A stretch of DNA of 64,000 bases from Gemmatimonadaceae bacterium (GTDB lineage: Bacteria > Gemmatimonadota > Gemmatimonadetes > Gemmatimonadales > Gemmatimonadaceae): the NCBI GenBank assembly GCA_035533755.1, contig DATLTC010000010.1, positions 62,001-126,000 on the forward strand. Direction: 5' to 3'. Below, piece by piece: positions 49,062 to 56,254 of this stretch (its first letter is position 1; every line of letters begins with the position of its first letter). The notes beneath the pieces were generated by a model, which saw only the letters and a list, made by a program, of their open reading frames with translations, was not told the DNA's origin and made no database searches. The position numbers and the translations under genes were made by a program.

Positions 49062-50980
49062 GCGCGTCGGTGGGCATCGACGTCGGCGGCACGTTCACCG
49101 ACCTCGTCTCCATCGATGTCGACGGCACGGTGGAGACGCGCAAGGTGTTGAGCACGCCCGCCGATCAGAGCCAGGGCGTGGAACAGTCGCTGCGCGCCCT
49201 CGGCCGCGCCGACGTGGAGCGCGTGGTGCACGGCACCACCGTGGCCACCAACATGCTGCTCGAACGCGCCGGGGCGCGCGTGGTGCTCTGCGCCACGGCC
49301 GGCTTCACCGACCTGCTCGAACTGCGCCGCCAGGTGCGCGCCTCGCTGTACGATCTCACCCGCCACCAGCCGCCGCCGCTCGTGGCCGCCGACTGCGTGG
49401 TGCCGGTGGACGAACGCATCGCGCCCGAAGGCGTCATCCGCGCCCTCACGGCGGCGGCGATCGACGAGGCCGTGGCGCGGGTGAAGGCACTCGCGCCCGA
49501 CATCGTGGCCGTGGCGCTGCTGCACGCCTACCGCGATCCGTCGCACGAACGGGGGCTGGCCGCGGCGCTCCGCGCGCGGTTGGACGGCGTGGACGTGGTC
49601 TGCTCGTCCGACGTGTTCCCCGAGATCCGCGAGTACGAACGCACGGCCACCACGGCCGCCGAAGCGTACCTGCGACCCGGCGTGGCCCGCTACGTGCGGC
49701 GCCTGGCCGAACGGCTGCGCGCGATGTCGCTGCCCGCGCTGGGCGTGATGACGTCCAGCGGCGGCATGCGTTCGGCGCACGACGCGTCGTCGGGCGCGGC
49801 GCAGCTGGCGCTCTCGGGGCCGGCGGGCGGCGTGGTGGGCGCGGCCGCGGTGCTCCGCGCCGCGGGACTGCCGCGCGCGCTCACGGTGGACATCGGCGGC
49901 ACGAGCGCCGACGTCGGGTTGATCCTCGACGGCGAACCGCTCGTGGAACCCGGCGGCGAGGTGGCGGGCGTGCCGATTGCGCTGCCCCGCGTGCTGGTCG
50001 AGACCGTGTCGGCCGGCGGCGGCAGCATCGCCTGGATCGACGACGGCGGCGCGCTGCGCGTGGGGCCGCGGAGCGCGGGGTCGGTGCCCGGTCCGATCGC
50101 GTTCGGCCGCGGCGGCGTGCAGCCCACGGTCACCGACGCCCACGTGATGCTCGGGAACATCCGCGCCGAGCGCATGAGCGGCGGCGTGCAGCTGGATGTG
50201 CAGGGCGCGCGCGACGGCATCGCCGCGATCGCCGTACGCCTGGGCCGGAGCGCGGAGGAGACCGCCCGCGCCATCGTCGCCACGGCCGACGCCACCATGG
50301 CCCGCGCCCTGCGCCGGGTGAGCGTGGAGCGCGGCGTGGATCCGCGACAGTGCACGCTCGTCGCGTTCGGCGGCGGCGGGCCGCTGCATGCGTGCGGGCT
50401 CGCCGACATCGTGGGCGCGGCGCGCGTGCTGGTGCCGCCGCACGCCGGCGTGCTCAGCGCCCTCGGCCTGGCGATGACCGCCGAACGGCGCGAAGGCATG
50501 GTGAGCGTGATGCGCCGCGCCGGTGCGTTGAGCGCCGAGGCGCTGGAGCGCGCGATGCGCGACGCCGAAGCGCGGTGCGACGGGCCCGGCGGCTGGTCGC
50601 GCAGCTGGTTCCTGCGGGCGCGGTTCGTGGGGCAGGGGCACGAGCTGGACGTGCCGGCCGCGCCGGGCGACGCCCCCGAGGTGGCGCGCGCGCGGTTCAG
50701 CGCGTTGCACAAGCAGCGTGTGGGGTTCGACCTGCCGGTGGACGTCGAGATCGTGAGCGTGCGCTGCGTGGTGAGCGACGCGGCGCGGAGCGTGCGGCTG
50801 GAGCGGCGCGGCGGCGCGGGGTGGAACGCCGACGCGCGCACCGACGACGGCGGCGCGTGCGAGGCCGAGCTCGCCGAGCCATGCTCGGTGGTGCTCCCCG
50901 ACGCGACGATGCTCGTGGCCGAGGGCTGGCGCGCCCGCGCGCTGCCCATCGGGGGCTGGATGCTGGAGCGGATGCGATGA
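49058..50980 (+). CDS. Hydantoinase/oxoprolinase A-type subunit (HyuA)
   Basis: 640 residues, start GTG 49058 inside the lnt stop. Actin-like (ASKHA) ATPase core with [12 protein letters not shown] and [13 protein letters not shown] at the N-terminus and [12 protein letters not shown] near residue 445. The family couples ATP hydrolysis to opening of cyclic imides or lactams (N-methylhydantoin, 5-oxoproline) or to related reactions; it needs the HyuB-type partner. Length is right for a single A subunit, not the fused eukaryotic 5-oxoprolinase. The exact substrate cannot be assigned. Confidence 0.9.
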
Positions 50981-52521
50981 GCGATTTCGACGTGCTGGAG
51001 CTGAGCGTGATGGCCAACGCCTTCGCGATGATCGCCGAGGAGATGGGCACCGTGCTCGTGCGCAGTGCGCTCTCGCCCAACATCCGCGAGCGGCGCGACG
51101 CGTCGGCGGCGCTGTTCGACGCCCGTGGCCTGATGGTGGCGCAGGCGGCGCACATCCCGGTGCATCTGGGCGCGATGCCCGAGTCGGTGCGGGCCGTGAT
51201 GGCGTGCGCCCCCGCGCCGGGCGACGTGTTCATTCTCAACGATCCGTACCGCGGCGGGTCGCACCTGCCCGATCTGACGCTCGTCGAAGCGATCGCGCAG
51301 GACGGCGGGACGGTGGGGTTCGCGGCCGTGCGCGCCCATCACGCCGACGTCGGCGGGATGAGCCCGGGCAGCATGCCGCAGGGAGCCACCGAGCTGGTGC
51401 AGGAGGGGCTGGTGATCCCGCCCGTGCGTCTGGTGGCGCGGGGCGTGCTCGACGAGATGATCCTGAACTTCATTCTCGCCAACGTGCGCACCCCGGACGA
51501 GCGGCGCGGCGACCTGCGCGCCCAGCTCGCGGCGTGCGCCGCCGGCGCGGCCGGATGGCGCGCGCTGCTGGCGCGCGAGGGGGCGGAGCGGGTGCATGCC
51601 GCGGTCGACGCCGTGCTCGACTACACCGAGCGCCGGGCGCGGGCCCGCGTGGCCGCGCTGGGCGCGCTCGACACGCGGGCCAGCGACGCGCTCGAAGGCG
51701 ACGGCGTGAGCGACGACGCCGTGCCGGTGGTGGTGCGGGTGCAGGCGCTGGGCCACACGCTGCGGCTGGACTTCACCGGCAGTGCGCCCATCGTGCGCGG
51801 CAACGTGAACTGCCCGCTGGCCGTGACGCGCGCGGCGGCGGTGTTCGTGCTGCGCACGCTGCTCGACGACGACGTGCCCACCAACGAGGGCATCGCGCGC
51901 GCCATCGAGCTGGTGGTGCCCGACGACTGCGCGCTCAACGCTCGCTGGCCGGCGGCCGTGGCGGGCGGGAACGTGGAGATGTCGCAGCGTATCACCGACA
52001 CGATCATGCTGGCGCTGGCCGGCGCCGGCGTGCCGGTGGCGGCGCAGGGGCAGGGGACGATGAACAACGTCACGTTCGGCGGAGCCGGCTGGACGTTCTA
52101 CGAGACGCTGGGCGGCGGGCAGGGCGCGAGCGCCCGGGCCGACGGCCCCGACGCGGTGCACGTGGGGATGAGCAATACGCTCAATACGCCCATCGAAGCA
52201 TTAGAGAACACATATCCCTTGCGCATCGAGGAGTACGCGGTGCGGCGCGGATCGGGCGGCGCCGGCGTGCATCGCGGCGGCGACGGCGTAGTGCGGCGGT
52301 ACCGGGCTCTGGAACGGTGCACGGTCACGCTGATCACCGAGCGGCGGACCACGGCGCCGCGGGGCGCCGCCGGCGGCGCCGACGGCACGCGCGGACGGAA
52401 TCTGCTCAACGGGGCCGAGCTGCCGGCCAAGTGCCGGCGGGAACTCGTGGCCGGCGACGTGGTGACGATCGAGACACCGGGTGGGGGCGGGTGGGGCGAA
52501 CCGCCCAACCGCCCCAACTGA
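50977..52521 (+). CDS. Hydantoinase/oxoprolinase B-type subunit (HyuB)
   Basis: 514 residues from ATG 50977, overlapping the hyuA stop by ATGA. Family segments: [48 protein letters not shown], and [10 protein letters not shown]-like [14 protein letters not shown], with the Gly-rich tail ETPGGGGWG. It forms the catalytic partner of HyuA. Its last codons and TGA lie in the left arm of the 156-bp palindromic element at 52516-52671, so the final residues (PNRPN) may be element-derived in part. Confidence 0.9.
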
Positions 52522-52671
52522 AGGCTCAAAGCCGCAAGCTGTTGGCTGTAAGCTGTTAGCAACGGCGCGGGGACCCTGTGGTGCCCCTGTCGCCGACCGT
52601 GCGCCCTGATGCGTCCCAGCGCCGTTGCTGATAGCTCCTAGCTGTCAGCTCACAGCTTTGAGCCTTCAGTT
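52516..52671. repeat. 156-bp palindromic element, copy 1
   Basis: The outer arms are a perfect 17-bp inverted repeat (aactgaaggctcaaagc at 52516-52532, gctttgagccttcagtt at 52655-52671). A second arm set agctgttagcaacggcgc (52551-52568) pairs with gcgccgttgctgatagct (52619-52636), 16 of 18. The central loop is similar to copy 2 at 54116-54271. It lies exactly between the stops of the convergent hyuB-type and 132-residue genes and contains both stop codons. Confidence 0.85.
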
Positions 52672-53064
52672 ATCAGTTCCCGCCGTTTCATCCGGCGCCG
52701 TTATCGCTTCGCGCCGCGCTTCCCGCGCCAATCCCGCGCGCATCCGCTTCTCCGTGAGCGCCATCCGCATATGCACCGACCCGATCCCGAGCCACATCAA
52801 GCCGCCGGTGAACACCACGAACCCGATCCCCAACGCCACGTGGCCGAGCGCCACGTACGACAGCACGTGCGTCACCCCGTCCTTGACGGCGGCGGTGACG
52901 GCGAGCGGAACGCCGAGCATGATTCCCCACCGGGCCACCTCCCGGCGCCGGATCGGACGACGCGCCTCCTTCCACCACGCGAGTTCTTCCGGCGTCGGCG
53001 GGGGCTCGATCGGATGCGCTGTCTGGCGTTTCATGAACCAGGGAGGACGGCTCGACGTTGTCAT
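52666..53064 (-). CDS. Two-helix membrane protein, unknown
   Basis: 132 residues from ATG 53064, whose ATGA overlaps the stop of the upstream Zn-ribbon gene. Two hydrophobic helices (about 47-62 and 70-95) flank a short loop; the N-terminal third is Pro-rich and the C-terminal 35 residues are basic helical (EKRMRAGLAREARREA). The last residues GTDN and the stop come from the palindromic element. Not recognised. Likely co-transcribed with the gene before it. Confidence 0.65.
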   Translation of the reverse strand: MTTSSRPPWFMKRQTAHPIEPPPTPEELAWWKEARRPIRRREVARWGIMLGVPLAVTAAVKDGVTHVLSYVALGHVALGIGFVVFTGGLMWLGIGSVHMRMALTEKRMRAGLAREARREAITAPDETAGTDN

Positions 53065-54053
53065 CCAGCGCTCCCCCCCTTCAGCCGCTCCAGGTGTTGG
53101 AGCACGCCGGGCGGCAGCATGAGGCCATCGGCGATCTCCGCGATCTCTTCCGCCAGCCGCCAGTCGGATTCGAGCTCGGCCAGCTCCGCCTTGGTCGCCA
53201 GCCGTTCGCTCTCGTCTTGCAGGGCCATCTCCAACGCGAGCTTGATCTCGGCGGGGTAGAACACCATCCGGTTGATACCCGCGGACGGGGCCACCTTCGC
53301 CAGGTGGCGGATGTACGCCTCCGCGGAGCCGGCCTCCTCCAGGAGGCGCAGCGCGCCCTCGACGCGGCGGGGGCGCGCGCCGTCGAAGTTCGTCGCGGTG
53401 AGCACGGCGCGGAGTCCGCGCCGTGCCGCGGCGCCGGTGACCGGAGCGTCGTCCGACAGATTCCATCGCAGCGCCCACCCGAGATCTCCGTCCGGGACGA
53501 GGCTCGCGCTGTTGGTCCGCGCGGTGTTGAGTTTCACCACTCGGCCGTCGGCATCCGCCACCCGAGCGCCGTGCAGCCTCATCCGTTGCAGAAAATAGAC
53601 GAACGCGAATCCGCCGAGGGCTGCCGTGTCGCCCATGCCGATGCTCGTCGTGAAGCTCAGCATCTGGAGTCCGATGAGTCCGGCGCCGACGCCGGCCATG
53701 GGCAGTCCGACCCGGCGCCACCGCTGTTGCAGCTCCCGCGCGTAGCGCCACGCGGCGATCTCCGGTCGGTTCGGCTTGCCCACGCGCACCAGCTCCAGCC
53801 CCTCGCGTGTTCTGGTGAGTCCGATGTTGTCGGTGGACGCCCGGAGCCGCGTGGCGCGGAACTGCCGCTCGCACTCCTCAATGGCTTCCCACCGCTCTTC
53901 CAGCGGCGTGAGATTCCACCGGTGGCATCGGGGGCAGACCACCCAGAGCCGCCCCTTCGCCGCATCGAACGCCAGCCGCTGCCCCACGGGGAAGGCCTCG
54001 ATGACCTCGTTGGCGCCGAGCTTCGCGTTGCAATGGAGGCAGGTGGAATACAT
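53061..54053 (-). CDS. Zn-ribbon membrane-associated protein, unknown
   Basis: 330 residues. An N-terminal zinc-ribbon-like module has CLHC (residues 5-8) and CPRC (40-43). A charged region follows, then two hydrophobic stretches (about 115-135 and 142-155) and a C-terminal helical domain (about 200-330). I do not recognise the whole. Its stop overlaps the start of the 132-residue membrane gene (53061-53064). The 213-base gap to the HD-GYP gene upstream holds palindromic element copy 2. Confidence 0.65.
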   Translation of the reverse strand: MYSTCLHCNAKLGANEVIEAFPVGQRLAFDAAKGRLWVVCPRCHRWNLTPLEERWEAIEECERQFRATRLRASTDNIGLTRTREGLELVRVGKPNRPEIAAWRYARELQQRWRRVGLPMAGVGAGLIGLQMLSFTTSIGMGDTAALGGFAFVYFLQRMRLHGARVADADGRVVKLNTARTNSASLVPDGDLGWALRWNLSDDAPVTGAAARRGLRAVLTATNFDGARPRRVEGALRLLEEAGSAEAYIRHLAKVAPSAGINRMVFYPAEIKLALEMALQDESERLATKAELAELESDWRLAEEIAEIADGLMLPPGVLQHLERLKGGSAG

Positions 54054-54115
54054 GGGGACGCCGGGGGCAGGGGTATACTTCCCTACTCATACGCCAGCGG
54101 ATGAAGCGACGCAAG

Positions 54116-54271
54116 AACTGCAGGCCGAAAACCGTAAGCTGCGAGCGGTGAGCCGCTGGCAACGGCGCGGGGACCCGGTTGCGTCCCGGCCGCCGACGGC
54201 GCGCCCCGATACGTCCCGGCGCCGTTGCTGATAGCTCACCGCCGTCAGCTCTCCGCTGAGAGCCTTCAGTT
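54116..54271. repeat. 156-bp palindromic element, copy 2
   Basis: Same length as copy 1 and homologous to it, most clearly in aacggcgcggggaccc (54160-54175) and gcgccgttgctgatagctc (54220-54238). The arms (aactg... at 54116, ending ...cagtt at 54271) pair imperfectly over about 53 bp, more diverged than copy 1. It sits at the 3' end of the HD-GYP gene, whose stop (54266-54268) it contains, and runs toward the Zn-ribbon gene on the same strand. Confidence 0.85.
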
Positions 54272-56254
54272 ATCGGTGTCCGCCGCTCCCGTGGCTTCAC
54301 TCGCCTTTGCGACCGCCCGGAACACGCCGGCCTCGATGAACGTCCCCAGCAGCTCGGCGTCCAGCATCCCCTCCTTCGCCTCCGCCGCCAGGATGTCCAG
54401 CGCCCGCTCGTGGCTCACCGCCCGCTTGTACGGCCGATCGGTGGCCGTGAGCGCGTCGAAGATGTCCGAGATCGTCATCATGCGCGTCTGCACCGCGATC
54501 GCCTCGCCCTTGATCTGCCGCGGATAGCCGCGGCCGTCCAGCTTCTCGTGGTGCCCGTAGGCGATGGCCGGAATCCCCGCCAACTCGCGCGTCCACGGGA
54601 TCTGCCCCAGGAACCGGTATGTGTGCGTCACGTGGGATTCGATCTCGCGCCGCTCGCGCTCGTCGAGATTGCCCTTGCGAATCATCAGAAACTGCAGCTC
54701 GTCGTCGTGCAGCAGCGGCCGCTGCTCGCCGTCGAAGTCCAGGTACGCCCGCTGATTGATCTCGTACAGCTCGTCGAACGTGCCCTCGGGCATGATCGTC
54801 GGCTCGTTGGCCTTCACGATGGCGTCCAGGAACCGCTCGAGCTCGGCGCGCTTGGCGCGCCGCGCCTCGTTCAACTGCGTCACCGCCTGGTCGTACGTGC
54901 CCGGCCCGTGTTCCAGCAGATAGTTGGCGCGCTCGCGCTCGAACTGCAGATCGGCCCGCTGCAGCAGGTACGCGAACCGGTGGCGGATGAGGTCGAGGTC
55001 CGACCCGTACAGCTTCTTCTGCTTCACCAGCACCTGCTCGCGCACGCCCACCTTGCCGAAGTCGTGGAGCAGCCCCGCGTAGCGGATCTCGCGGATCTGC
55101 TCGGCGTTGAACCGCAGCCCCGTGTAGCGGCCGGCGCCGCCGCGGTTCACCGCCTCGGCCAGCCCCACGGTGAGCGTGGCCACGCGGCCCGAGTGACCCG
55201 ACGTGGTGGGATCGCGCGACTCGATGGCCGTCACGGCCGCCGTCACGAACCCCTCGAACAGCTTCTCGATGTCCTCGTAGAGCAGGCTGTTCTCGATGGC
55301 CACGCCGGCCTGCGCCGCCAGCGCCGAGACCAGCTCCAGGTCGTGCGGTGCGTACGGCAGCACCTCGCGCTCCACCTCCTCAGGCGACGACAGCGTGACG
55401 TCGTACCGTCGCTTGCGGTTGATGAGCTGCAGCACGCCGATGACCTCCTCGCGGTGGGTCTTCATCGGCAGCACGAGCACCGACTTGGTGCGGTACCCGA
55501 ACTTCGTGTCGAAGCTGCGGTTCTGGTGGTAGGGCACGGCCTCGGACAGCAGATACACGTCCTCGATGGCCAGCGGCTCGCCGGTGACGGCGGCGTGCCC
55601 GGCCAGGCTCGAGTGGTCGATGGGGACCACGAACTCGCTGAACTCCAGGTCGGGGATCGAGTGGTTCTGCGACAGCCGGAAGCGAAGCGTCGTGGCCGGC
55701 GTGCCGTCGGCATTGCGGTCCACCAGATAGAGCGAGGCGGCGTCGCTCCACGTGATGCGCCGCGCCTGGCTGAGGATCATCTCGAGCAGCGTCGTGAGAT
55801 CGCGCTCCGTGGACAGCGCCACCCCCACCTGCGTGAGGTCGGCCAGCTCGCGCCGGCTGCGCTCCTCGCGGTACCGCGCGCGATCGGCATCCACGATCGT
55901 CGCCGCGTGGCGGAACGCGCCGCGCAGCTGCACGGCCACCACGGCCGCCGGCGCGTCGGCCGGCACGAAGCTCGTGATCAGGTGCGCCGGAAGCTCCGCC
56001 GCCGGCTCGCGCTCGCCGGGCTCGCCCACGGCCAGCAGGGCTGCGCGCGCCGCGATGCCGGCCAGTGCCGCGGCGGCGTCCTGGCCGGCGGCGCGCACCA
56101 GCGCGCGGTCGAGCACCACCACCGCCGCGCGGTCGGGATCGAGCGTGGCGGGGTCGGGCAGGGCACGCACGCGGCGCACTTCGATCGCTGGGTCCGCGTC
56201 GAGCGGCGCGCCGCCCAGCGTCCGGCCCTCGGACAGGATCAACAACGGCTTCAT
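54266..56254 (-). CDS. GAF and HD-GYP domain protein, putative c-di-GMP phosphodiesterase
   Basis: 662 residues. Residues 1-125 look like a degenerate receiver or regulatory domain (KPLLILSEGRTLGG, AVVVLDRALVRAA) without a clear phosphoacceptor. A GAF domain (about 145-330) follows. The HD-GYP domain carries HDFGK (H397, D398) and HHEKLDGRGYP (H568, H569), so metal-binding and catalytic motifs are intact, with a roughly 130-residue insertion between them containing a helical segment. It should degrade c-di-GMP. The stop and last residues DTDN lie in palindromic element copy 2. Confidence 0.92.
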   Translation of the reverse strand: MKPLLILSEGRTLGGAPLDADPAIEVRRVRALPDPATLDPDRAAVVVLDRALVRAAGQDAAAALAGIAARAALLAVGEPGEREPAAELPAHLITSFVPADAPAAVVAVQLRGAFRHAATIVDADRARYREERSRRELADLTQVGVALSTERDLTTLLEMILSQARRITWSDAASLYLVDRNADGTPATTLRFRLSQNHSIPDLEFSEFVVPIDHSSLAGHAAVTGEPLAIEDVYLLSEAVPYHQNRSFDTKFGYRTKSVLVLPMKTHREEVIGVLQLINRKRRYDVTLSSPEEVEREVLPYAPHDLELVSALAAQAGVAIENSLLYEDIEKLFEGFVTAAVTAIESRDPTTSGHSGRVATLTVGLAEAVNRGGAGRYTGLRFNAEQIREIRYAGLLHDFGKVGVREQVLVKQKKLYGSDLDLIRHRFAYLLQRADLQFERERANYLLEHGPGTYDQAVTQLNEARRAKRAELERFLDAIVKANEPTIMPEGTFDELYEINQRAYLDFDGEQRPLLHDDELQFLMIRKGNLDERERREIESHVTHTYRFLGQIPWTRELAGIPAIAYGHHEKLDGRGYPRQIKGEAIAVQTRMMTISDIFDALTATDRPYKRAVSHERALDILAAEAKEGMLDAELLGTFIEAGVFRAVAKASEATGAADTDN

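Follow-up and report, generated by a model that had tools for sequence, protein, structure and literature searches.

Paired 156-bp hairpin elements at gene ends in a Gemmatimonadaceae genome and their arm homology to an S23 gene element of a sister species

In the 64,000-nucleotide stretch of a Gemmatimonadaceae genome analyzed here (the window), two similar hairpin elements of 156 bp lie at the ends of genes, as predicted with a gene caller trained on codon-position GC. Copy 1 (52516-52671) is found between the convergent genes hydB (50977-52521, plus strand), which encodes a hydantoinase B/oxoprolinase (Pfam PF02538, 8.6e-186), and gene B (52666-53064, minus strand; about 123-132 aa). Copy 2 (54116-54271) occupies the space between the stop of a GAF/HD-GYP-type phosphodiesterase-like gene (54266-56254, minus strand; Pfam PF13487 and PF01590) and the start of gene A (53061-54053, minus strand; 330 aa), which sits between the two copies. 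No Pfam match was obtained for gene A or gene B; genomes of the genus each carry several paralogues of gene A. The copies share the same orientation, are 1.6 kb apart, and align without gaps over 156 columns with 80% identity. Their coordinates and equal length agree with a first-pass annotation of this DNA.

Three of the neighboring genes obtain their stop codons from the element ends. The left arm of copy 1 (52516-52574) contains the hydB stop codon TGA (52519-52521), and its right arm (52613-52671) carries the gene B stop codon (52666-52668) on the minus strand, so that the element overlaps the stop codons of both convergent flanking genes. In copy 2 (left arm, 54116-54174; right arm, 54213-54271), the minus strand of the right arm carries the HD-GYP stop codon (54266-54268). 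hydB terminates with AAC TGA, while gene B and the HD-GYP gene terminate with GAT AAC TGA, and the two proteins both finish in ...TDN* (...AGTDN* and ...DTDN*, respectively). One full TAACTGA unit is present at each of these two ends, within ACTGATAACTGA for gene B and GATAACTGA for HD-GYP. The copies had been described as noncoding and near gene ends. They are indeed ORF-less, but as hydB, gene B, and the HD-GYP gene all take their stop codons from the element ends, the copies are not wholly outside genes; the association with gene ends is closer than had been proposed, as the elements begin in stop codons.

A vectorised ungapped stem scan with Markov controls placed a 38-nt loop between 59-nt arms in copy 1, the outermost 17 bp of which pair perfectly (AACTGAAGGCTCAAAGC / GCTTTGAGCCTTCAGTT), as had been noted before. 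It is the sole stem of such strength in the 64-kb window, and the Markov control gave 0. The first 150 nt of copy 1 fold as RNA at -87.5 kcal/mol (z = -8.3) and those of copy 2 at -82.1 kcal/mol (z = -4.2), and neither value was equalled by any shuffled sequence, which bears out the earlier view that both copies form long hairpins. Copy 2 retains Watson-Crick pairing at 40 of 59 positions, with damage to the outer arm; its arms had likewise been called diverged yet pairing, and judged by its sequence, this copy looks decayed. The four arms of the window copies are 69-85% identical among themselves and consist of degenerate 7-nt repeats (GCTNNNA) around a core, AGCAACGGCGnnGGGAC, which appears in both left arms as GCAACGGCGCGGGGAC. 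The right arm of copy 1, for example, reads GCTGATA GCTCCTA GCTGTCA GCTCACA GCTTTGA GCCTTCA GTT. At a lag of 7, 99 of 208 positions in the four arms match themselves, compared with 55 ± 6 after shuffling (maximum of 79 in 5000 shuffles).

The suggestion of an RNA element in the first-pass annotation found no support in covariation between the copies or in Rfam. When the two copies were compared pair by pair, one two-sided compensatory change stayed Watson-Crick, while eight Watson-Crick pairs became mismatches, and covariation between the copies is therefore unsupported. An Rfam search of the window at gathering scores returned no match, a tRNA/tmRNA search found none, and a search for intrinsic terminators found no terminator-like site and no U-tract at either copy.

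We searched the whole genome (G000; 3.25 Mb, 98% complete) by BLAST and recovered copies 1 and 2 and no third copy. Strong hairpins are few in this genome, with five in 392 kb (three at a higher cutoff, none in Markov controls; the count is based on these 392 kb plus the window). The only PF05635 gene of G000 was considered as the parent element and rejected, as its flanks do not have such arms. The copies look inactive in G000, since there are only two of them, they are 20% diverged, their arms are decaying, and the genome holds no S23 element.

The best match to the window copies outside G000 (E = 1.2e-11) is on contig 252 of the sister species G001, a contig matched by the record of Gemmatimonadota isolate REEB322. 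It lies beside a PF05635 gene (23S_rRNA_IVP/S23), the product of which also passes TIGR02436, four helix bundle protein. The matched arm and its inverted partner bracket the S23 gene, and the 5' arm of this element is 75-81% identical to the window arms, the nearest being the right arm of copy 2 (81%). The window copies themselves have loops of 38 nt and no S23 ORF. Two more ORF-less elements with the same ends and a different inner stem are present on contigs 120 and 320 of G001, and the core AGCAACGGCGnnGGGAC also occurs in orthologous ORF-less hairpins of G008, a relative of the same family, and of Gemmatimonadaceae P6-2. Scanning 84,980 species with the core pattern gave six matches, of which two are real, both in Gemmatimonadota. 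The matches in Mesopusillimonas, Marivita, a Clostridiales, and Halovenus have no such hairpin and were taken as chance. Another S23 gene of G001, on contig 226, is bracketed by arms of about 156 bp made of a 14-nt repeat (CAAGAACGGCGCCGG-like) with 82% complementarity, the strongest inverted flanks in our S23 set.

We investigated S23 genes across the order by scoring the inverted repeat between left and right flanks at the 47 loci with sufficient flank. At 31 of them the score surpassed the 99th percentile obtained with mismatched flank pairs. In a second control, 309 genes of G008 were scored likewise and three reached 40, among them an S23 gene and its neighbor. Where the arms are clear, the right arm usually starts 0-13 bp past the S23 stop, and about 75-150 bp separate the end of the left arm from the S23 start; no clear consensus motif was found upstream of the start among the S23 loci. 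Arm sequences vary between subfamilies, and a period of 7 recurs both in S23 flanks and in ORF-less hairpins. In G008, arms of 58-59 bp are common to one S23 element and three ORF-less hairpins, with 84-88% identity, which indicates that both forms coexist in one genome.

G008 is rich in such elements. It carries ten S23 genes, and 400 kb of it yielded 36 strong hairpins (30 at the higher cutoff, none in Markov controls), which are ORF-less and show the 7-nt periodicity. None of the 35 hairpins with called neighbors falls inside a gene. The distance to a stop codon is at most 15 nt in 21 of 33 cases (median of 7), and the distance to a start codon is longer (median of 65). The orientation classes match the background, with 7 of 35 hairpins between divergent genes. 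Between G008 and G040, three sites, including one occupied in G008 by an S23 element, carry unlike hairpins in the two species, and two sites carry the same kind. At one place, G040 (contig 144) has about 170 bp where G008 (L135:15918-17419) has about 1.5 kb. The locus of the window pair also differs between relatives: genes A and B (52666-54053) are missing from the hydB/HD-GYP junction in G001 and G003, each of which has one hairpin of differing sequence there, and are present in G002, which has a short hairpin beside HD-GYP and an apparent half-element remnant beside hydB. No clean empty site was seen; the corresponding positions in sister species are usually taken up by another hairpin or by a remnant. 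Orthologous sites often carry different hairpins, so that occupancy is kept while the sequence changes. By sequence comparison, this turnover fits either recurrent insertion at gene ends or selection that maintains some hairpin at these sites.

Searches for mobilizing enzymes covered draft genomes. Y1_Tnp (RAYT) was not found in G000, G001, G008, or G040 with a search that gave matches in five control genomes, and reverse transcriptase was not found in G000, G001, or G008, the matches being in G040 only. Neither was thus retained as the mobilizer in hairpin-rich G008, where the two usual helpers seem to be unavailable, as far as drafts allow this to be said.

We consider the window copies to be relic ORF-less (MITE-like, nonautonomous) members of a family of S23-associated hairpin elements, in whose fuller relatives the same arms enclose a loop with a single S23/23S-rRNA-IVP four-helix-bundle gene; we put the probability of this at roughly 0.6. 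It brings together the element anatomy, the arm homology, the association with S23, the hairpin abundance of a relative, and the placement at stop codons. The elements would multiply by being copied into sites at gene ends; there, their termini (AACTGA, TAACTGA-like) would provide a stop codon and the neighboring gene would survive. The long stem, when transcribed, would form a hairpin at the 3' end of the mRNA, where the RNA structure probably has its effect: it could block exonucleases or, like the ribosomal S23 intervening sequence of Coxiella (PMC4990558), be cut by RNase III.

Hairpins that adjoin stop codons, and that persist at a site from species to species despite a differing sequence, could also be encoded by the host, as terminators or mRNA 3' stabilizers that either change in situ or are exchanged by recombination, with S23 genes merely settling there. 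We regard this as unlikely. A U-tract was not found at the window copies and their arms are without covariation, and G008 has 7 of 35 hairpins between divergent genes, just as in the background. The same arm families are, moreover, dispersed over many sites and common to S23 elements, and the genome of the window has few hairpins. A purely local history, in which one hairpin was duplicated with or around genes A and B and has no meaning beyond the locus, seems less probable still. It would account for two copies of equal length and orientation, 1.6 kb apart and alone in the genome, and for the single hairpin at the junction in G001 and G003, which do not have genes A and B. The first-pass annotation had stated that two copies only, without compensatory changes, would speak for such a duplication rather than a family. 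G000 by itself comes close to this, but the relatives show a family. The arm of the G001 S23 element resembles either copy as closely as the two copies resemble one another, and the remnants at the locus in G002 indicate that the elements are old. Local duplication may nonetheless be the reason why there are two copies.

Least probable of all are REP/BIME-type elements mobilized by a RAYT (Y1) transposase, or retroelements mobilized by a reverse transcriptase in trans. The window elements are palindromic, are located downstream of genes, and have a possible mRNA 3' role, as REP/BIME sequences do; relatives have many copies, intergenic and at gene 3' ends, and PF05635 proteins are described as resembling Avd of diversity-generating retroelements (PMC10053308). 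Unlike REP/BIME, however, the window elements have 59-nt arms built of heptamers. As no RAYT was found in the four genomes of the group searched, despite the positive controls, and reverse transcriptase searches were negative in G000, G001, and G008 (a hairpin-rich genome with ten S23 genes), we rejected membership in the REP/RAYT class, and with it the REP-like label of the first-pass annotation. Its other label, a mobile or multicopy MITE-like element, was upheld by the relatives, with the same arm recurring in sister species, including around an S23 gene, and similar hairpins abundant in G008, but not by G000 with its two copies. Like MITEs, the window copies are short (156 bp), palindromic, and ORF-less, with inverted termini and with ends common to an ORF-bearing form in relatives. 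Unlike MITEs, they have no parental transposase, the ORF of the parental form being S23, and the copies of G000 are two adjoining ones rather than dispersed; similar hairpins are dispersed in G008. A target-site duplication was not established at sites whose orthologues carry other hairpins or remnants.

To our knowledge, the layout of an S23 gene within a hairpin has so far been known mainly from insertions within ribosomal RNA genes. S23/IVP proteins, which resemble Avd, have been described from 23S rRNA gene insertions. The S23 intervening sequence of Coxiella is reported to be excised by RNase III (PMC4990558), and S23 proteins are also reported from rRNA insertions of CPR bacteria (PMC11270868). 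The relatives described here resemble these intervening sequences (PMC4990558, PMC11270868) in that the loop of their long stem contains a PF05635/S23 ORF and in being small and without a transposase. They differ in lying between protein genes at stop codons, in having arms of 7-nt repeats, and in the existence of ORF-less copies; the window copies, also between protein genes, carry no ORF. Repeats of TAACTGA are described in Beggiatoaceae, cyanobacteria, and others (PMC4679880), and the Thiomargarita genome is described as having palindromic repeats and TAACTGA (PMC4853749). The window elements share with the TAACTGA repeats the 7-nt unit, the intergenic location, the overlap with gene ends, and proteins that finish in ...TDN*. 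Unlike the window elements, those repeats are mostly direct and without hairpin arms, and S23 is not mentioned in that report (PMC4679880). A nonexhaustive literature search, with subscription journals and bioRxiv outside its scope, returned no report that joins S23 genes and 7-nt-repeat hairpins in the portions of the sources that were accessible.

The pair in the window is a modest find in G000 and a pointer to a broader pattern. Tentatively, and with more doubt than confidence, S23 hairpins with 7-nt-repeat arms could be widespread minimal selfish elements outside rRNA genes, which would need no transposase, RAYT, or reverse transcriptase to spread, would insert precisely at stop codons, would displace each other at the same sites, and would give rise to ORF-less copies such as the window pair. 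If most S23 genes of an order sit in intergenic hairpins with ORF-less offspring, the natural partner of S23 would be the hairpin. G008, with about 30 hairpins per 400 kb, ten S23 genes, and neither RAYT nor reverse transcriptase detected, is a place to test whether S23 suffices for such an element. The elements also offer a possible origin for the 7-nt repeat clusters at gene ends that have been reported without explanation in other bacteria.

Other repeats were observed in G000 and a relative. A further hairpin on contig 10 of G000 (L108:11318-11411) is of a 7-nt GGACGGTA type, a subfamily that differs from the window pair. Two long hairpins on contig 26 (L122:688-895 and L122:3549-3759), about 2.7 kb apart, have GGATGCTCCGGAT-like arms and by eye are not of the 7-nt type. 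On contig 51 (L005, around 1500-1570), a mixed 7-nt repeat stretch (GAGCCGTGAGCTGACAGCTAACCGTCCTACTGTCC...) lies between two apparent tRNA genes, and a similar mixed stretch is present in G002 (L011).
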